This document shows positions 3,907 to 43,931 of a stretch of 43,931 bases of DNA, one piece after another. The DNA is from Treponema sp. GTDB lineage: Bacteria > Spirochaetota > Spirochaetia > Treponematales > Treponemataceae. Under the pieces are notes generated by a model that saw only the letters and a list, made by a program, of their open reading frames with translations, did no database searches and had not been told where the DNA came from. Each line of letters starts with the position of its first letter. The stretch's first letter is position 1. The stretch covers positions 1-43,931 of the forward strand of contig JAAYQG010000019.1 in NCBI GenBank assembly GCA_012519415.1. Reading direction: 5' to 3'. A program made the translations under genes and the position numbers.

Positions 3907-4422
3907 ATGACAAACAGACCAATCGCAGAAATTGATGCAGAAATTTCTCGCATAAAAGAAGCTCTTGCAAATGTAAAGGGCTCAGAAACTGAAGTATATG
4001 CTCGTATTGTCGGTTACTATCGCTCTGTGCGAAACTGGAACAAAGGAAAACGAGATGAATACGATCATCGCAAAATGTTTTTGCATGATTATGAATTCGT
4101 ACCAAACAAAACAATGACAGAAACAAATGTAGCAGTTGCTGAATCGAATCTTGTTTCCAGCGAAAATCCTGTACGTTACGAATTTTTTGCTAGATCAACT
4201 TGCCCTAACTGTCCGCCTGTAAAAGAATATATATCAAATACGGCAATTGTTGGAAAATTGTTTGATGTTGATACTGAATCAGGGTTCAATAGAGCTTCTG
4301 AATTGGGCATAATTGCAGCCCCGACTGTAGTTTTGTTCAATGAATATGATGCAGAAATTGGACGAGCATATAATACTATAGAGCTTGCATCTTTTTTTGA
4401 AAAAGAGCCGGCTTTGTGCTAA
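3907..4422 (+). CDS. Stand-alone glycyl-radical domain fused to a thioredoxin/glutaredoxin-like domain (NrdD partner)
   Basis: 171 residues. Residues 27-57 carry the motif usually found at the extreme C-terminus of NrdD: TEVYARIVGYYRSVRNWN followed by GKRDEYDHR, with Gly36 as the predicted radical glycine. Residues 88-165 look like a small thioredoxin-fold domain: YEFFARSTCPNC with redox pair Cys99/Cys102 and an AAPTVV segment with the expected cis-proline (Pro139). The gene lies 35 nt after nrdD with its own AAGGAAGG ribosome site and is not in frame with nrdD, so it is a real separate gene rather than a readthrough. I infer that it docks on NrdD to supply the radical glycine, is activated by NrdG, and brings its own disulfide reductant. 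The arrangement recalls GrcA/YfiD, the separate glycyl-radical partner of pyruvate formate-lyase. Confidence 0.85.
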   Translation: MTNRPIAEIDAEISRIKEALANVKGSETEVYARIVGYYRSVRNWNKGKRDEYDHRKMFLHDYEFVPNKTMTETNVAVAESNLVSSENPVRYEFFARSTCPNCPPVKEYISNTAIVGKLFDVDTESGFNRASELGIIAAPTVVLFNEYDAEIGRAYNTIELASFFEKEPALC

Positions 4423-6156: not shown

Positions 6157-7572
6157 TTATTTTGTATAAACAACAATAGAACCTGACATTTTCTCCTGCC
6201 AGCCTCCATTAACTCCAATATTTTCATTCTCTCCCAAAATTAATATACCATTGCCTTTCAACTGATCTGTAAATGTTTCTAAAAGCAGTTCTTGTGATTG
6301 ACTTGGCAAGAACGATAAAACATCACGACAGAAAATAATATCAGAACTTGGCATATTCCCTGTATTCAAACAATCATGATATTCAAATAAAATCATATCT
6401 TTAATATCTTGAATAAAAGCATTAGCACCGCTGACATTCTTAGAAATATACGGTTTAATCCATGATGTTACAGCTGCATCAGGAACTGTAAGCATTGGCG
6501 CATTTGAGATACTTATTAAGTCAATATCTTGTGCAAAAATCCTTACACGCGATTCCGGATAACGCTTTTTAAGAACACAAGCAAGCGAATAAGTTTCATA
6601 TCCTTTTCCACAGCCTAAGTTCCAAACATTTATCTGTTTAGCTGCATTTTCCGGCAAAAGCTTATAAACAGAATTCGAATAAGCTTCACTCCAAAATTTT
6701 CCAGTACATGTTGAATAAAACGGCTTCAAAAACTCATCACAATCAGAAGCCGAAAGTAGCTGTTTAGCAGTTCCGCCTGATTTTTCAACCCATTCATTGT
6801 ATCTATGGTTTACCCATGCTTCATTTATTGAAGTTGTATAAAATTTTTTTTGAGATGCAAGAGATTCCTTTATAAAAGTATAATCAGCACTTTCTTTTGG
6901 TTCTTCTGGCACAGACAATGGCTCTTTTACTTCAGAAAAATTTTGATTATTTTTAGAAACCGATGGTTTTTCAATAGGATTTTGATTAATATTTTGAGGA
7001 TCCTCTGCATCTACTAAAGCTAAAGAAGCTGATTCATCTTTTGGTTTTGACTCTTCTTTAACCGATGATTTAGAACCAAAAATTCTTTCAATATCAAGCA
7101 ATATATACAAACGATCTGCGTTTTCAACAACACCATAAATATATTTTATGTTTATATCGCCAAACAAAGGATGCGGTGGCTGAATAGAACTTTTTTGTAT
7201 ACCGACAACTTTATCTATAGCATCTACAACAACGCCAAAAATCTGTTCCTCAATAGAAACAATTATCATATTTTCTACTTTATTAGCACTGCGTTCAGGA
7301 ACTGGAATATTGAAAAATAATCGAAGATCTATTATTGGAATAATATCACCGCGCAAGTTATACACACCCAAAACAAAATGAGAAGTATTGGGAACATAGG
7401 TAAAACGACCGGCTTTAGCTATTTCTTTAACTTTCATAATATCAATAGCATAATCTTTTCCGGCCAGTGAAAAAGAAACCATTTTAAAATCTACATTCGC
7501 AACAATTCGCTCTTTTTCATCAGCAATATTTTCAGCCGTCAACTGAGTATTAACATCAGTTACAAGTTCCAT
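6157..7572 (-). CDS. CheW fused to a degenerate CheR-like domain
   Basis: 471 residues. Residues about 27-168 form a CheW domain (FKMVSFSLAGKDYAIDIMKVKEI; VLGVYNLRGDIIPIIDLR; FGVVVDAIDKVV). A low-complexity linker rich in Glu, Pro and Asn runs from about 169 to 230. Residues about 231-471 resemble CheR methyltransferase: WNLGCGKGYETYSLAC in the SAM-binding position and SDIIFCRDVLSFL for the family's DLIFCRNVLIYF. The usual TxFFRE segment reads TGKFWSEAY, with the conserved arginine replaced, so methylation is doubtful. A CheW-CheR-like protein of this kind has been described as a structural part of chemoreceptor arrays in T. denticola. It starts 9 nt after cheA with a GGGG ribosome site. Confidence 0.9.
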   Translation of the reverse strand: MELVTDVNTQLTAENIADEKERIVANVDFKMVSFSLAGKDYAIDIMKVKEIAKAGRFTYVPNTSHFVLGVYNLRGDIIPIIDLRLFFNIPVPERSANKVENMIIVSIEEQIFGVVVDAIDKVVGIQKSSIQPPHPLFGDINIKYIYGVVENADRLYILLDIERIFGSKSSVKEESKPKDESASLALVDAEDPQNINQNPIEKPSVSKNNQNFSEVKEPLSVPEEPKESADYTFIKESLASQKKFYTTSINEAWVNHRYNEWVEKSGGTAKQLLSASDCDEFLKPFYSTCTGKFWSEAYSNSVYKLLPENAAKQINVWNLGCGKGYETYSLACVLKKRYPESRVRIFAQDIDLISISNAPMLTVPDAAVTSWIKPYISKNVSGANAFIQDIKDMILFEYHDCLNTGNMPSSDIIFCRDVLSFLPSQSQELLLETFTDQLKGNGILILGENENIGVNGGWQEKMSGSIVVYTK

Positions 7573-11466: not shown

Positions 11467-12315
11467 ATGAGCGAATCATGCAACCATGACTGTTCATCAT
11501 GCAGTTCAAATTGTGAACAAAGAACAGCGGAACAAACTGATTTTCATGAAAAACCGCATGAAAAATCAAACATCAAAAAAGTTATCGGTATTGTAAGTGG
11601 CAAGGGCGGCGTTGGGAAAAGTCTTGTAACTTCGCTACTTGCAGTTCAGGCTAAAAAAAACGGTCATCAAACAGCAATCCTTGATGCAGATATTACAGGA
11701 CCTTCAATTCCAAAATCATTCGGTATAAAAGAGCGTCCATTAGGAATGGACGACGGAATGTTGCCTGTAAAAAGTGCTTTAGGCATTAAGTTAATCTCTT
11801 TGAATCTTCTTCTTGAAAATGATACAGACCCTGTTGTGTGGCGAGGACCTGTTATTGCAGGAGCTGTAAAGCAATTTTGGACAGATGTAATTTGGGAAGA
11901 TGTAGATTTTATGTTTGTTGATATGCCTCCCGGAACAGGAGATGTTCCGCTTACTGTTTTTCAAACATTGCCAATAGACGGCATCGTTGTCGTTGCTTCT
12001 CCACAAGAACTTGTAGGAATGATTGTTGAGAAAGCAGTAAAAATGGCAAATATGATGAATATTCCGATAATTGCAATTGTCGAAAACATGAGTTATTTCA
12101 AATGCCCAGATTGCGGAAAAGAACATCATATTTTTGGAGAAAGTCGCATTGATTTTATTGCTGAAAAATTTGATATTGATACAGTATGTAAACTCCCAAT
12201 TGATCCAAATTTTGCAGCCGCAACAGATAAAGGTGAAATCGAAAAAGTAGATAGTTCTATTCTAAATAAAATCATCGAGAAAATTGGAAGATTTTGCGTT
12301 TCGCATGGGGTTTAA
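11467..12315 (+). CDS. Mrp/NBP35-type Fe-S cluster carrier ATPase
   Basis: 282 residues. Deviant Walker A SGKGGVGKS (about 44-52) and DADITGPS identify the Mrp/NBP35/ApbC family; VDMPPGTGDV is the Walker B region. Cys213 and Cys216 (FKCPDCGKEH) form the bridging CxxC. The N-terminus carries four extra cysteines (Cys5, 9, 12, 16), like the ferredoxin-type N-terminal motif of eukaryotic NBP35; many bacterial Mrp proteins lack it. The protein binds and transfers Fe-S clusters. The start has GGAGGAGG. The last six residues (CVSHGV) and the stop codon are encoded inside an intergenic repeat unit (12296-12347), so the natural C-terminus may have been altered by its insertion. Confidence 0.92.
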   Translation: MSESCNHDCSSCSSNCEQRTAEQTDFHEKPHEKSNIKKVIGIVSGKGGVGKSLVTSLLAVQAKKNGHQTAILDADITGPSIPKSFGIKERPLGMDDGMLPVKSALGIKLISLNLLLENDTDPVVWRGPVIAGAVKQFWTDVIWEDVDFMFVDMPPGTGDVPLTVFQTLPIDGIVVVASPQELVGMIVEKAVKMANMMNIPIIAIVENMSYFKCPDCGKEHHIFGESRIDFIAEKFDIDTVCKLPIDPNFAAATDKGEIEKVDSSILNKIIEKIGRFCVSHGV

Positions 12316-12549
12316 TCTGAAATTTGGGGATTATGCTAGCGAAACGCCAAGTTTGTGCGGAGCACAAACTTGAAGATTGAGTGTTCGGTGGGGTTTAATC
12401 TGAAATTTGGGGATTATGCTAGCGAAACGCCGAAGTTTGCGTTTTGCGTTTGGGTTGGTGCTACGAATTTGGGACTAATCTGGCAAAACGCCGGATTGGG
12501 CGTTCAGTTGGGTTAATCTAAAAATTAGGGTTTATACTAGCGAAACGGC
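12296..12549 (+). repeat. Mosaic of four intergenic repeat units
   Basis: Four related units of about 50 bp stand in tandem: 12296-12347 (termini GCGTTTCGC and GCGAAACGC), 12381-12431, 12439-12491 (termini GCGTTTTGC and GCAAAACGC) and 12500-12549. The interiors share GGGTTTAATCTGAAATTTG or GGTGCTACGAATTTGGGA. The termini differ between units but remain complementary within each intact unit. Between the first two units lies a perfect hairpin, AAGTTTGTGC / GCACAAACTT with loop GGA (12349-12371). The first unit overlaps the end of the Mrp gene. No coding capacity. From 12550 to 12667 I see only AT-rich sequence with a TTTTGTACAAAA palindrome. Confidence 0.85.
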
Positions 12550-12667
12550 ATAATTTTGTACAAAACATAAAGATTACTAGGGGTTAACCACGATTTCAGG
12601 ATAAATATAAGGCTCTGTGTTTTATAAGATTTACAACAAGTTTAAAAAATACAAGCTTTACCAATGT

Positions 12668-12744
12668 CCAGAAATGAAGCAAAATGACGTGCCTTTGCAG
12701 ACGCGTAGCGTCGAAACCGCACGGCACTTTTGCTTCATTTCTGG
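12668..12744. repeat. Long imperfect palindrome (77 bp)
   Basis: Outer arms of 17 bp (12668-12684 and 12728-12744) are perfectly complementary. After a 4-nt bulge the arms continue as GTGCC / GGCAC, and the loop contains a second hairpin, GACGC-GTA-GCGTC (12700-12712). It lies 6 bp from another repeat unit. It could be a folded RNA or a mobile-element end. Confidence 0.75.
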
Positions 12745-12750
12745 GAAAAT

Positions 12751-12803
12751 GCGTTTTGCGTTTGGGTTGGTGCTACGGATTTGGGACTAATCTGGCAAAA
12801 CGC
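12751..12803 (+). repeat. 53-bp intergenic repeat unit
   Basis: Identical to the unit at 12439-12491 except for one base, with perfect 9-bp inverted termini GCGTTTTGC / GCAAAACGC. It lies about 50 bp beyond the stop of the converging acyl-CoA synthetase gene. Confidence 0.85.
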
Positions 12804-12852
12804 CGGATTGGGCGGTGGGGTTTATTAAAAATTTGTAGTTGTGATACAATTT

Positions 12853-23097: not shown

Positions 23098-23150
23098 GCG
23101 TTTCGCATTTAAATTGGAGCTACAAATCTGAAATTAATCTAGCGAAACGA
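23098..23150 (+). repeat. 53-bp intergenic repeat unit
   Basis: GCGTTTCGC (23098-23106) and GCGAAACG (23142-23149) form the inverted ends; the interior TTGGAGCTACAAATCTGAAA is related to the 12-kb units. It begins right after the TGA of the unknown gene. From 23151 to the asnS promoter I see no further feature. Confidence 0.75.
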
Positions 23151-23312
23151 TAGATTGGCAAAACCAGATTCTGTGCATTGTCTTTAGATTTGTACAAAGC
23201 CAAGATTCCAAAGGCAATAAGCACTTTAATCGTGGCCAAGCAAATGGAGTCAAGAAGAGAAAAACAGTAGCCTTAGTACTTTGAGCTAATGTCCTTCCCA
23301 TTTAATTAATGC

Positions 23313-23349: not shown

Positions 23350-24795
23350 ATGAAAACTCAATTAATTAAAGATTTGCTTGTTTCCAATCCAGATGGACGG
23401 AAAGTTATTGTATGTGGCTGGGTACGCACAATGCGCGATTCAAAAAACCTTTGTTTTGTTCAAGTAAATGACGGTTCTTGCTTTGCAAATATTCAGCTCA
23501 CGTATGATCGCAATAATCCAGGAGATGCAAACCCGGAAAATATAGAAAGTGAATTAAAACGAATTTCAACAGGAGCTTCTGTTGTGGCAGAAGGAAATAT
23601 AATTCCATCGCCTGCATCAGGGCAAGCTGTAGAAGTTTCGCTGATTTCCCTTAAAGTTATAGGAGAATCTCCATCTGATTATCCGCTTCAGAAAAAAGGA
23701 CATTCTATAGAATTTTTACGGGAAATTGCACATCTTCGCCCGCGCACAAATATTATAGGTGCAGTTGCCCGCGTGAGAAGCAAAATGGCTTTTGCCGTTC
23801 ACACTTTTTTTCAAGAAAGAGGATTCCAATATTTTAATGCACCGATTATTACTTGCAGCGACTGCGAAGGTGCAGGCGAAATGTTTCAAGTTACAACACT
23901 TGATTTGAATCGCATTGCAGAAGAAGGAATTAAAGCGGGCGCAAAAGGCATGAATCCTTCAAAAGCAGCAGATTTAATTGATTACAGCAAAGATTTTTTC
24001 GGTAAATTAGCAAATCTTACAGTTTCAGGCCAACTTGAAGCTGAAACTTATGCTACGGCACTTTCTCGAGTTTATACATTTGGACCGACTTTCCGTGCCG
24101 AAAACTCAAACACACCTCGCCATCTTGCAGAATTCTGGATGATTGAGCCTGAAATGGCATTCTTTGAACTTGAAGACAACATGGATATTGCAGAAGAATT
24201 TGTAAAATATCTTTTGGATAAAGCACTTGTAGAATGTTCGGAAGATATGGCTTTCTTTGACAGTCGTGTGCAAAAAGGTATTATCGAAACTTTGACGCAC
24301 GTTGCAAAATCCGATTTTGTACGTATGAGTTATACAGATGCAATTAAAGAGCTTGAAAAGAATAACGACAAATTTGAGTTCAAAGCATTTTGGGGATGCG
24401 ATCTCCAAACAGAACATGAACGTTTTCTTACGGAACAAATTTTCAAAAAACCGGTTATGGTTTATGACTATCCAAAGGAAATAAAAGCTTTCTACATGAA
24501 ACTTAATCCAGATGAAAAAACCGTTCGCGCAGTTGACGTTTTAGTTCCGGGAATAGGTGAACTTATCGGCGGCTCAGAACGCGAGTCAGATTATGAAAAA
24601 CTTAAAAACCGCATAATAGAACTCGGCATGGATCCTAAAGATTACTGGTGGTACCTTGATTTACGAAAATATGGAACAGTTCCACACTCTGGGTTTGGTC
24701 TGGGTTTTGAACGACTAATCCGTTACATTACTGGAATGGGAAACTTGCGCGATGTAATTCCATTCCCGCGCGCTCCAAAACTTGCAGAGTTTTAA
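23350..24795 (+). CDS. asnS: Asparagine-tRNA ligase
   Basis: 481 residues, usual AsnRS size. An N-terminal OB-fold ([31 protein letters not shown]) is followed by the class II catalytic core: motif 1 around [17 protein letters not shown], motif 2 [25 protein letters not shown], and motif 3 [27 protein letters not shown] at the C-terminus. It charges tRNA-Asn. The last 122 bp, covering motif 3 and the stop, are duplicated at 28067-28188 with two mismatches, which suggests that DNA was inserted or exchanged at the gene's 3' end. The protein itself is intact. Confidence 0.97.
24674..24795 (+). repeat. 122-bp direct repeat, left copy (asnS 3' end)
   Basis: Same 122 bp as 28067-28188 with two mismatches (C/T at the ninth base and TTT/TTC in the last codon). 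With the right copy it frames a 3.27-kb segment with three genes. Confidence 0.92.
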
Positions 24796-28066: not shown

Positions 28067-28188
28067 GAACAGTTTCACACTCTGGGTTTGGTCTGGGTTT
28101 TGAACGACTAATCCGTTACATTACTGGAATGGGAAACTTGCGCGATGTAATTCCATTCCCGCGCGCTCCAAAACTTGCAGAGTTCTAA
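28067..28188 (+). pseudogene. Duplicated 3' end of asnS (right copy of 122-bp direct repeat)
   Basis: Encodes only the last 39 residues of AsnRS in frame (from [14 protein letters not shown] to PKLAEF and TAA), with no start. It differs from the intact gene at two bases. It is immediately followed by a terminator-like hairpin that the intact asnS lacks, which suggests this end carries the original downstream flank. Confidence 0.92.
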
Positions 28189-32980: not shown

Positions 32981-33508
32981 TTATCTTAATTTTATACGCA
33001 CAAAATAGCCGTTTTCATTTTTATGATGAATCACACCGCCGTTTTTAAGCATAACACGAAGGCTTGATTGATTGTCCAAATTGCAGTGAAGATAAAGCTC
33101 ATTTTCAGGCACGATTTTTTTTGCTTCTTCTACAAGAAGACGCAAACCCTCCGTGCAAAATCCCCTGCCCCGAAAGTCCTTGCCGATAAACTGACCGACA
33201 TGGCCGCTTCCTTTCTCAAGTGAAGGAGTCAAATTATGGCGCAAGCGGAACTCTCCCACAATCACAGGCTCACTTGATTCGTCATCCTCAAACCATAAAA
33301 AGTAAAATGTTTCAGGAACATATCCTTCCGGAAGCCCCTCACCTTTTGAAGCTGCAATCATGCCCGGAAGCCCTTTTTGTTTGAAAGTCTCAAAATCCAT
33401 TCCGGCATTTGTATTGATAAAGCCGTTCTCATCGGCAGGTACACAAGAAACAAAAGAAAACTCTTTCTCTATATCTTCCATGTTTGCAGGTTTCAAGTAA
33501 AGTTTCAT
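32981..33508 (-). CDS. GNAT-family N-acetyltransferase
   Basis: 175 residues from ATG 33508 (MKLYLKPANMED); the frame is open 27 codons further upstream but those codons overlap the preceding small gene. The acetyl-CoA loop is seen as VGQFIGKDFRGRGFCTEGLRLLVEEA (Q/R-x-x-G-x-G/A type), followed by LYLHCNLDNQSSLRVMLKNGG, the usual C-terminal part. The substrate is unknown. No clear Shine-Dalgarno; it follows the small gene by 22 nt and may be translated by coupling. Confidence 0.85.
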   Translation of the reverse strand: MKLYLKPANMEDIEKEFSFVSCVPADENGFINTNAGMDFETFKQKGLPGMIAASKGEGLPEGYVPETFYFLWFEDDESSEPVIVGEFRLRHNLTPSLEKGSGHVGQFIGKDFRGRGFCTEGLRLLVEEAKKIVPENELYLHCNLDNQSSLRVMLKNGGVIHHKNENGYFVRIKLR

Positions 33509-33530
33509 ATGCTTGAAAAGTCCGATGTAT

Positions 33531-33764
33531 TCAGACCATATCCCGTGTAAACTTCGGGCAACCAAGCGCAAAATCAGCCAAATATTCATAATCTTTAGGA
33601 TTTATGAAAAACTTATCAAGCGAATGACGCATATGAAAAATCCAGCGTGAATTGCTTACGCCGTCAAGAACAAAATCAATGTTACAGTCTTTTATCTGGT
33701 TCTCAATATTTTTGAACAAAATGAGTATCCGCGAATAAATACTATCAGTCAATGCCCTTTCCAT
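33531..33764 (-). CDS. Small protein of unknown function
   Basis: 77 residues from ATG 33764, which has TTGGAGAA upstream at good spacing. It reads MERALTDSIYSRILILF ... and ends FALGCPKFTRDMV. No recognised domain, signal or membrane segment. It may be a complete small gene or the head of a longer gene that was cut. It lies just upstream of the acetyltransferase gene on the same strand. Confidence 0.5.
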   Translation of the reverse strand: MERALTDSIYSRILILFKNIENQIKDCNIDFVLDGVSNSRWIFHMRHSLDKFFINPKDYEYLADFALGCPKFTRDMV

Positions 33765-33839
33765 GCATTTCTCCAATATTCTGATTTCACTTTTGGGATT
33801 ATAAACTACAATTTTAAGATTAGTCCAGCTGAACTCACT

Positions 33840-34108
33840 GCCAATTTCGCAAACATAAACCCCAAATTTTAGATTAAACCCAAATTTGTAACTCCAATCC
33901 CAACCGCACGCCCAATCTTCAAGTTTTACTCCGCAAAATTATGCCGCACCTGTACAAAGCCGCACTGCATGGAGGCAGTGCACAAGCGTGAGTTTTGTGA
34001 AACAAAACTCGGCAGTTTAATCAGACAAGGAAGTCTGATTAAACTGCAAACTTCGGCGTTTTGCCAGAACAGTCCCAAATTTGTAGCTCCAATCCCAAAG
34101 CAAAACGC
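33840..34108 (-). repeat. Mosaic intergenic repeat with three-hairpin core
   Basis: Minus-strand relatives of the 12-kb units frame this block: one at about 33840-33938 and an intact 53-bp unit at 34056-34108 (GCGTTTTGC / GCAAAACGC). Between them a core has three perfect hairpins in a row: GCACTGC / GCAGTGC (33962-33981), GAGTTTTGT / ACAAAACTC (33990-34010), and a 15-bp stem from GCAGTTTAATCAGAC (34012-34047, loop AAGGAA). The 124 bp at 33931-34054 recur at 43808-43931 with one mismatch. The block ends 2 bp before the -35 of the topoisomerase promoter. No credible coding frame. Confidence 0.88.
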
Positions 34109-34110
34109 AT

Positions 34111-34139
34111 TTGCATGTAATCTAAAAATATGCTACACT
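34111..34139 (+). promoter_or_regulatory. Promoter of the topoisomerase genes (possibly leaderless)
   Basis: TTGCAT (34111-34116), 17-nt spacer, TACACT (34134-34139), then 7 nt to ATG 34147 with no ribosome site. The -35 lies 2 bp from the end of a repeat unit. Confidence 0.55.
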
Positions 34140-34146
34140 AAAAAAC

Positions 34147-35973
34147 ATGGGTGGAAAATCTTCTAACTACGACGAATCAAAAATCAAGACACTTAGCTCT
34201 CTTGAACATATAAGGTTGCGCTCAGGAATGTACATCGGGCGCATTGGAGATGGTTCAAATCAAAATGACGGAATCTATATTCTTTTAAAGGAAATAATTG
34301 ATAATGCCGTTGACGAATTTATTATGGGCAACGGCGAAACAATAGATATAGGTGTAAAAGACCGCAGAGTGCGTGTCCGCGATTATGGACGAGGAATTCC
34401 TTTAGGAAAACTGGTCGAATGTGTGTCTATAATTAACACAGGTGCAAAATACAATGACGAAGTTTTTCAATTTTCAGTTGGATTAAACGGCGTAGGCACA
34501 AAAGCTGTAAATGCACTTTCAAGCTATTTTAAGGTTATTACAATTAGAGATGGAAAATGTGCAGAAGCGGTATTTGAACGCGGTATATTACAAAGCGAAA
34601 AAAAAGGCAGTGTTAAAACAGGCATAAAAAACGGAACATATGTAGAATTTGAACCGGATACAGAAGTTTTTGGCGAATATGCTTTTAACATGGAATTCTT
34701 AGAAAAGCGCATCTGGAATTATGCATATCTTAATATCGGTTTGACCCTTAACTTCAATGGACGCAATTTTGTCAGCAATAACGGTCTTTTAGATTTGCTG
34801 AACAAAGAAATTGACGAAAATTCTATTTATCCTTTGGGATATTATCGCGGAAAACAACTCGAATTCTCTTTTACCCACACAAATGATTACGGTGAAAATT
34901 ATTTTTCATTTGTAAATGGGCAATATACAAGCGACGGCGGCACTCACCTTTCAGCTTTTAAAGAAGGTTTTTTAAAAGGAGTAAATGAATTTTTCCAGAA
35001 AAACTATAAAAGCGAAGATATTCGTGAAGGAATGACAGCCGCAATTACCGTAAAAGTGCAAGCACCTGTTTTTGAAAGTCAAACCAAAAACAAGCTTGGA
35101 AACACAGATGTTCGTGCATGGATTGTGCCTGAAACAAAAGCCGCAATAGATGATTGGCTTAGACGCAACAATGAAGCTGCAAAAATGCTTCAGGAAAAAA
35201 TTGAATCAAATGAAAAACTCCGAACAGAACTTAATTCTGTAAAAAAAGAAGCAAAAGAAGCCGCAAAACGCATAAGCATTCGCATTCCAAAGCTTAAAGA
35301 CTGCAAGTATCATATTCAAGACGGCAAAAAAGGCGAAGATTCGATGATTTTCATCACTGAAGGTGATTCTGCATCAGGCACAATGACCCATTCAAGAGAT
35401 GCAAATTATCAAGCTATTTTCAGCCTGAGCGGGAAACCTGAAAATATGTACGTGCGAAAACAAAGCGATATTTACAAAAACGATGAGCTTTATCAACTTA
35501 TGATGGCACTTGGAATTGAAAATGATGTAGCAAATATTAAATATTCTAAAATTATAATTGCAACAGACGCTGATAATGATGGCTTTCATATTAGAAACTT
35601 AGTGTTAACTTTCTTTCTTGGTTTTTTTGAAGAACTTGTTACAACCGGACGCGTATTTATTCTTGAAACACCGCTTTTCCGTGTCAGAAACAAAAAAGAA
35701 AATATATACTGCTATTCAATAGACGAACGCGATAAAGCACAAAAACAACTTGGAGCTTCTAGCGAAACAACTCGCTTTAAAGGTCTGGGAGAAATAAGCC
35801 CTTCGGAATTCAAAGATTTTATTTCTCCTGATACGATTCATCTTACACCTGTTGAAATAAATCAGCTTAAACTTGTGCCGCCGCTTTTAGCGTTTTATAT
35901 GGGTAAAAACACACCGGAACGTCGCGCTTTTATAGAAAAACATCTTCTAAGCAATGCGGACATTGATGTTTAA
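34147..35973 (+). CDS. parE: Type II topoisomerase subunit B (ParE/GyrB-like)
   Basis: 608 residues, shorter than GyrB. GHKL ATPase motifs: KEIIDNAVDEF with Asn53, RDYGRGIP (Asp79) and GLNGVGTKAVNALS. FESQTKNKLGN is the QTK loop. The TOPRIM domain shows ITEGDSASG and ATDADNDGFHIR, and the C-terminus RFKGLGEISPSEFKDF matches the family. It hydrolyses ATP and forms the gate with the ParC-like protein encoded 9 nt downstream. The gene pair resembles the second gyrase-like pair of some spirochaetes, chlamydiae and Bacteroidetes, so the assignment as topoisomerase IV rather than gyrase is inferred. Confidence 0.9.
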   Translation: MGGKSSNYDESKIKTLSSLEHIRLRSGMYIGRIGDGSNQNDGIYILLKEIIDNAVDEFIMGNGETIDIGVKDRRVRVRDYGRGIPLGKLVECVSIINTGAKYNDEVFQFSVGLNGVGTKAVNALSSYFKVITIRDGKCAEAVFERGILQSEKKGSVKTGIKNGTYVEFEPDTEVFGEYAFNMEFLEKRIWNYAYLNIGLTLNFNGRNFVSNNGLLDLLNKEIDENSIYPLGYYRGKQLEFSFTHTNDYGENYFSFVNGQYTSDGGTHLSAFKEGFLKGVNEFFQKNYKSEDIREGMTAAITVKVQAPVFESQTKNKLGNTDVRAWIVPETKAAIDDWLRRNNEAAKMLQEKIESNEKLRTELNSVKKEAKEAAKRISIRIPKLKDCKYHIQDGKKGEDSMIFITEGDSASGTMTHSRDANYQAIFSLSGKPENMYVRKQSDIYKNDELYQLMMALGIENDVANIKYSKIIIATDADNDGFHIRNLVLTFFLGFFEELVTTGRVFILETPLFRVRNKKENIYCYSIDERDKAQKQLGASSETTRFKGLGEISPSEFKDFISPDTIHLTPVEINQLKLVPPLLAFYMGKNTPERRAFIEKHLLSNADIDV

Positions 35974-43738: not shown

Positions 43739-43931
43739 GGTTTTGCTAGATTAATCCCAAATTTGTAGCACCAACCCACCTAAATGCCCAATCCTCAAGT
43801 TTTTGCTCCGCAAAATTATGCCGCACCTGTACAAAGCCGCACTGCATGGAGGCAGTGCACAAGCGTGAGTTTTGTGAAGCAAAACTCGGCAGTTTAATCA
43901 GACAAGGAAGTCTGATTAAACTGCAAACTTC
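43739..43931 (-). repeat. Second copy of the three-hairpin intergenic repeat (cut by window end)
   Basis: Starts with a degenerate unit (interior ATCCCAAATTTGTAGCACC) and continues into the same core as 33931-34054. The 124 bp at 43808-43931 match it at 123 positions, with all three hairpins kept; the only change (A to G at 43879) shortens the pairing of the second hairpin slightly. It continues past the window. Confidence 0.88.

Follow-up and report, generated by a model that had tools for sequence, protein, structure and literature searches.

Organization of the locus

The window, a 43,931-nt stretch of Treponema sp. DNA, corresponds from end to end to contig C56 of the source genome (G000). 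The segment under study lies between two divergent genes, a GNAT acetyltransferase gene on the minus strand (32981-33589) and a plus-strand gene of the GyrB/ParE family (34147-35973). Read on the plus strand, it begins with decayed array modules (33795-33930), namely remnants of B type and a degenerate A-type hairpin, recognized by their similarity to array units elsewhere. These are followed by a three-hairpin core that resembles TD-2 RNA (33931-34054), delimited by the Rfam scan and by comparison of copies. The right end of the array is a B module (34056-34108; module comparison and A+B model) whose 9-bp stem, GCGTTTTGC/GCAAAACGC, encloses a conserved 35-nt loop. The putative sigma-70-like promoter of the parE-like gene (34111-34139; TTGCAT, 17 nt, TACACT) begins 3 nt past the array end, as assigned by a promoter scan and by the orthologues in G004 and G006. 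No plus-strand promoter was found before the core.

The core folds into three consecutive hairpins. Hairpin 1 (33962-33981) has 7 bp and the ANGGA-type loop ATGGAG (folding and loop analysis), while hairpin 2 (33990-34010) has 9 bp and a loop without GGA (folding). Hairpin 3 (34012-34047) has 15 bp and the loop AAGGAA closed by AC/GT, which gives the layout AC-ANGGAN-GU (supported by covariation and by a published consensus, PMC7652899). A second plus-strand copy is found at 43808-43931 (hairpins at 43839-43858, 43867-43887 and 43889-43924), where it is cut by the contig end; half of a B-type module, identified by matches to array units, lies to its left (43740-43777). The near identity of the two 124-nt copies and their three hairpins, both reported in an earlier note on this DNA, were borne out. 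The sole difference is at position 34002, where copy 1 has A and copy 2 has G. Stems have 7, 8-9 and 15 bp; those of copy 1 are free of mismatches, and in copy 2 the change leaves hairpin 2 with T-G as its top pair. The core is more stable than shuffled sequences on both strands (z of -5.5 on the plus and -5.8 on the minus strand), none of 200 shuffles being equally stable.

The final 127 nt of copy 2 are identical to the final 127 nt of contig C55. An exact common suffix of this length is what an assembly graph with k=127 should leave when a repeat interrupts it, and four 127-mers of this kind, shared or joinable, turned up at the 49 contig ends examined. Position 43931 is thus an assembly limit, and assembly also explains where copy 2 stops and why it has no right flank. 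The divergence of the flanks claimed in the earlier note is accordingly visible on the left, while the right side of copy 2 cannot be judged because the contig stops there.

The window carries further repeats. Another A/B module array (12281-12833) and a solitary diverged B module (23098-23173; E 5.8e-7) are both on the minus strand. A second hairpin repeat, CCAGAAATGAAGCAAAA..TTTTGCTTCATTTCTGG, occurs in or beside arrays at about 12664-12744 and in contigs C16 (L054) and C149 (L059). A 122-nt direct repeat of 98% identity is present at 24674-24795 and 28067-28188. The first of these forms the 3' end of an ORF (23350-24795) whose translated end resembles, by eye, asparaginyl-tRNA synthetase; the second, a fragment, lies about 3.4 kb downstream.

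Copies of the core and relation to TD-2 RNA

The copy count suggested by the earlier note, performed by blastn with a 270-bp region, gave 106 genome matches. The core, reported there as present twice, occurs in the genome in about 13 full-length copies and some 14 partial ones. Full three-hairpin cores are found in contigs C14, C21, C37/C171, C55, C56 (two), C88, C122, C146, C153, C185 and C187. Hairpin 2 is missing in C11/C103, C33, C121/C151 and C125 through a single deletion between two GGCAGT repeats, and other partial cores retain only hairpins 2 and 3, only hairpin 3, or hairpin 1 and part of hairpin 2. Random loss of hairpins, named beforehand as an observation that would speak against a meaningful core, was not seen, since copies lose entire hairpins and show no random decay. 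The occurrence of near-identical copies at sites unrelated to each other speaks for recent spread; C55 and C56, for example, share the repeat and then part abruptly to its left. The earlier note had overlooked that the core belongs, as a single module, to a repeat system of far greater extent.

No match was found in Rfam at the gathering threshold. A scan of a short stretch at a lower threshold aligned positions 33963-34049 to the full model of TD-2 RNA (RF03162) with 40.1 bits (E 1.2e-4 to 3.3e-5). This score and the 48.4 bits of the best copy in the genome (L008) are both below the TD-2 gathering score of 48.7 bits. Ten core copies align to TD-2 end to end (model positions 1-98, three consecutive hairpins) with 36-48.4 bits, the nine outside the scanned stretch scoring 36.2-48.4. 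Judged by these full-model matches against the 48.7-bit threshold, the core is a diverged TD-2 relative that falls slightly under the curated cut-off. Of 90 family genomes, 53 carry TD-2, and several single-contig ones have at least 39 copies each; the 14 controls gave no match. TD-2 was reportedly described by Weinberg in 2017 and is, to our knowledge, a candidate RNA without an assigned function. Our literature search, whose coverage stopped short of that presumed description, returned nothing on the core or array repeat, nor on TD-2 together with CsrA. At two loci (L258 and L263) an identical stretch, AACCAAAGTTCTTTTTCGGTAACCTTGGTTCTTTTT, which resembles an intrinsic terminator, lies directly 3' of the TD-2 element.

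The A/B hairpin arrays

The arrays are built from two modules. The A module is a hairpin of about 10-12 bp that exists in several forms (CAAGTTTTTGC.., CAAGTTTTCG.., CAAGTTTGTGC.., GTAGTTTGCG..), and in the B module a conserved loop of roughly 35 nt is enclosed by a 9-bp stem (forms GCGTTTTGC, GCGTTTCGC and GGGTTTTGC). A covariance model of A+B (R1) has at least 151 matches in the source genome, forming 89 clusters of which a single one is of mixed orientation; inverted A/B pairs occur in G006. Within the genus, R1 has 106 matches in G006, 103 in G004, 60 in G003, 51 in G001, 17 in G002, three in G007 and none in G005. Only one marginal match was found in the sampled genomes of other genera of the family and the A/B repeat is thus genus-specific. 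Same-genus records bearing names (L064-L066) are rumen or gut Spirochaetales MAGs. Searches of PLSDB and INPHARED gave no match that would point to carriage by plasmids or phages. Pattern scans of IMG/VR returned one viral contig with AAACTTGGCGTTTYGCYAG (L224, IMGVR_UViG_3300012936_000052, positions 3907-3925).

Base pairing in the modules is maintained. It is kept in 96.0% of cells across 146 distinct copies from the source genome, with 226 two-sided changes against 70 in shuffled data, while in relatives 96.4% of cells pair and 16 of 20 pairs display two-sided changes. The result holds when stems are ignored in the search: among modules of relatives found by their B-loop sequence, 64% have complementary flanks of at least 7 bp, compared to 16% with shuffled partners, and about nine different stem sequences are represented.

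Two local arrangements were observed in passing. Three loci of G006 (L198, L201 and L202) have in common an inverted A/B pair within a larger repeat, which is bounded by TGGCGGAAA..TTTCCGCCA and may be a composite mobile element. In contig C84 of the source genome the same array with its flanks is found at 6586 and 10732, in opposite orientation and 4 kb apart, which is either an inverted duplication or an assembly palindrome.

Position of the arrays relative to promoters and gene ends

At their 3' (right, B) end the arrays adjoin a -35 box or, where a gene converges on them, its stop codon. Among the 34 strong sigma-70-like promoters predicted to the right of arrays, 24 start 0-9 nt from the array end, when 12% would be expected under uniform insertion (p about 3e-15; the null derives from 12 array-free promoter regions, a small sample). 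Where the gene to the right is convergent, its stop codon mostly lies within about 0-11 nt or is provided by the array itself. The same docking recurs in G004, G006 and L064 and, for TD-2, in L230, L257 and L260. In G004 and G006 the promoter of the orthologous parE gene occupies the same position, but no array is present. The left ends of arrays are decayed and undocked, with fuzzy limits. Arrays can be old, since some of them occupy corresponding gene ends in different species (L105/L207, L111/L116/C33 and L064/L098); some arrays are flipped. A conserved specificity of insertion site was considered and rejected, the right flanks having no visible consensus. The right flanks of L099, L100, L186, L192, L206 and L220 bear a recurring hairpin-like sequence, CGCYTCGGAnTAGGGG..CCCTTA, which separates the array from converging genes and is perhaps a terminator family.

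Predicted promoters are not enriched upstream of TD-2 (6%, the same as in shuffled sequences) and are enriched downstream (32% versus 8%); the core copies likewise have no upstream enrichment. Many copies would consequently reside outside obvious transcripts.

GGA loops and the CsrA hypothesis

GGA is found in two apical loops, those of hairpins 1 and 3, in 31 of 32 TD-2 copies from other genera, and in at least two in all 12 core copies, frequencies matched by 0.3% and 0% of the respective shuffles; these counts are not independent events because the copies are homologous. On the reverse strand, GGA loops are present in none of the 32 TD-2 copies and core copies have at most one. Hairpin 3 was analyzed in 40 distinct sequences. 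Its loop-closing pairs are invariant (A-U in 40/40, C-G in 39/40) and GGA is kept, while each of the four pairs below them has 13-21 two-sided changes. Its covariation score is 0.460, versus 0.152 when shuffled and at most 0.075 when slid.

The CsrA consensus selected by SELEX is RUACARGGAUGU, in which ACA and GGA are invariant and AC pairs with GU around a six-base loop (PMC7652899). The AC-ANGGAN-GU layout of hairpin 3 is the CsrA site defined by SELEX and NMR, although the SELEX ligand stems are typically no longer than 4 bp, far shorter than the 15-bp stem of the core (PMC7652899). The exact SELEX consensus occurs in 8 of 32 TD-2 copies, and in 17 of 32 if any base is accepted at R. The sequence RTACANGGATGTAY occurs 90 times in G094, 11 times in G075 and never in reversed controls. 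The source genome encodes a canonical 76-aa CsrA with L4 and R44. On this sequence evidence the loops of hairpins 1 and 3 look like CsrA docking sites, which gives TD-2 a direct functional hypothesis, binding of CsrA.

Interpretation and alternative explanations

The explanation that we favor, at about even confidence, is that the core would be a TD-2-like, CsrA-type hairpin module amplified within REP/BIME-like, RAYT-less and genus-specific arrays of intergenic DNA. Transcription of its plus strand would come from a remote promoter or from read-through. In the resulting RNA, hairpins 1 and 3 might each occupy one face of a CsrA dimer, with hairpin 2 as a spacer, and the scattered copies could serve as CsrA sites or decoys. 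Copies may have spread via recombination, gene conversion or some enzyme, arrays being lengthened by tandem duplication. The earlier suggestion that the core acts as a structured RNA gains from the end-to-end, if sub-threshold, TD-2 match, the covarying stems and the GGA loops confined to one strand; it is not proven because the window core lies between divergent genes and lacks an upstream promoter.

These last two points, together with rare G-U pairs and stems much longer than those of SELEX ligands, leave a serious rival that we consider possible but rather doubtful, a selfish or structural DNA repeat of REP/MITE type for which RNA would be irrelevant. Its hairpins would act as single-stranded DNA or cruciforms during copying, or its quasi-palindromes would be corrected by template switching. 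In its favor is the scarcity of G-U: the A helix of the source genome has 173 two-sided versus 3 one-sided changes, and TD-2 and core taken together have 1258 Watson-Crick versus 32 G-U pairs. Mismatches in G000 are also strand-symmetric (31 G-T versus 29 A-C; in relatives the same test is skewed by a few alleles), and the tandem arrays, the inverted pairs of G006 and the location of copies between divergent genes fit a DNA-level repeat. Palindrome correction, however, does not predict one-strand GGA loops with an invariant AC/GU closure, and the genome has no Y1 transposase or reverse transcriptase. The mobile-repeat and the protein-binding-site readings may both be true at once. The close docking at -35 boxes, including its recurrence in relatives and for TD-2, could instead mean that arrays are retained for an effect on the downstream gene, as an insulator or supercoiling-sensitive upstream element. 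We judge this improbable, as parE in G004 and G006 has the same promoter without an array and many arrays adjoin stop codons of converging genes (about 0-11 nt) with no promoter involved. Least credible of all is that both copies derive from a single sequence duplicated by the assembler: copy 2 does stop at a contig end with the suffix found in C55, but the copies differ by one core base and diverge further leftward, and more than 100 family matches placed in the genome, with more in relatives, already refute an artefact for the family as a whole.

More broadly, and only as a tentative proposal, TD-2 and its relatives may be mobile CsrA hairpin modules of which treponemes hold dozens of dispersed copies, together forming a scattered network of CsrA decoys or sites; they would spread by docking beside gene ends and promoters and would grow into lineage-specific arrays of hairpins. 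Whatever their role, the arrays make up a genus-specific repeat system that docks precisely at stop codons and -35 boxes, has no obvious transposase and contributes to the fragmentation of the genome assembly (189 contigs).

Comparison with known systems

The core shares with TD-2 (clan CL00124, with TD-1) three hairpins in the same order, the second hairpin GAGTTTT..AAAACTC, GGA loops in hairpins 1 and 3, alignment over the full length and a high copy number in the family. It differs by a score below the gathering value, a shorter hairpin-2 loop and its setting within A/B arrays. The A+B unit recalls organelle double-hairpin elements, which also combine two adjacent hairpins with covarying stems in dispersed intergenic DNA, but it is bacterial and has a conserved 35-nt B loop; this is no more than a resemblance. 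Integron attC sites were discarded by inspection, as they need RYYYAAC ... GTTRRRY while the B arms read GTTTYGC ... GCRAAAC, a misfit of both box order and letters.

The arrays have much in common with REP/BIME/REPIN elements: more than 100 extragenic palindromic units (the R1 matches and their clusters), mosaic arrays, spread within the genome and, in the sister species G006, inverted pairs. Within the arrays of G000, however, units share one orientation, alternating or inverted units being absent outside the one mixed cluster. The arrays differ also by docking at -35 boxes or stop codons and by the GGA loop constraint of the core. The transposase RAYT (Y1_Tnp, PF01797) was not detected in G000, while 2 of 8 genomes of the genus and the controls were positive. 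A RAYT was hence rejected as the mover in this genome, as was a reverse transcriptase, none being encoded.

Like the CsrA-sequestering RNAs of CsrB/RsmZ type, the core has ANGGAN loops in several hairpins (two GGA loops per copy, with the full AC/GU closure in hairpin 3) and belongs to a genome with a canonical CsrA. Each copy has only two GGA hairpins, scattered over many loci, the stems are very long, and no promoter or terminator of its own was seen; an own upstream promoter was likewise not apparent as enrichment in 31 TD-2 copies. If the CsrA reading is true, treponemes would titrate CsrA by many scattered repeat copies and not by one or two sponge RNAs.
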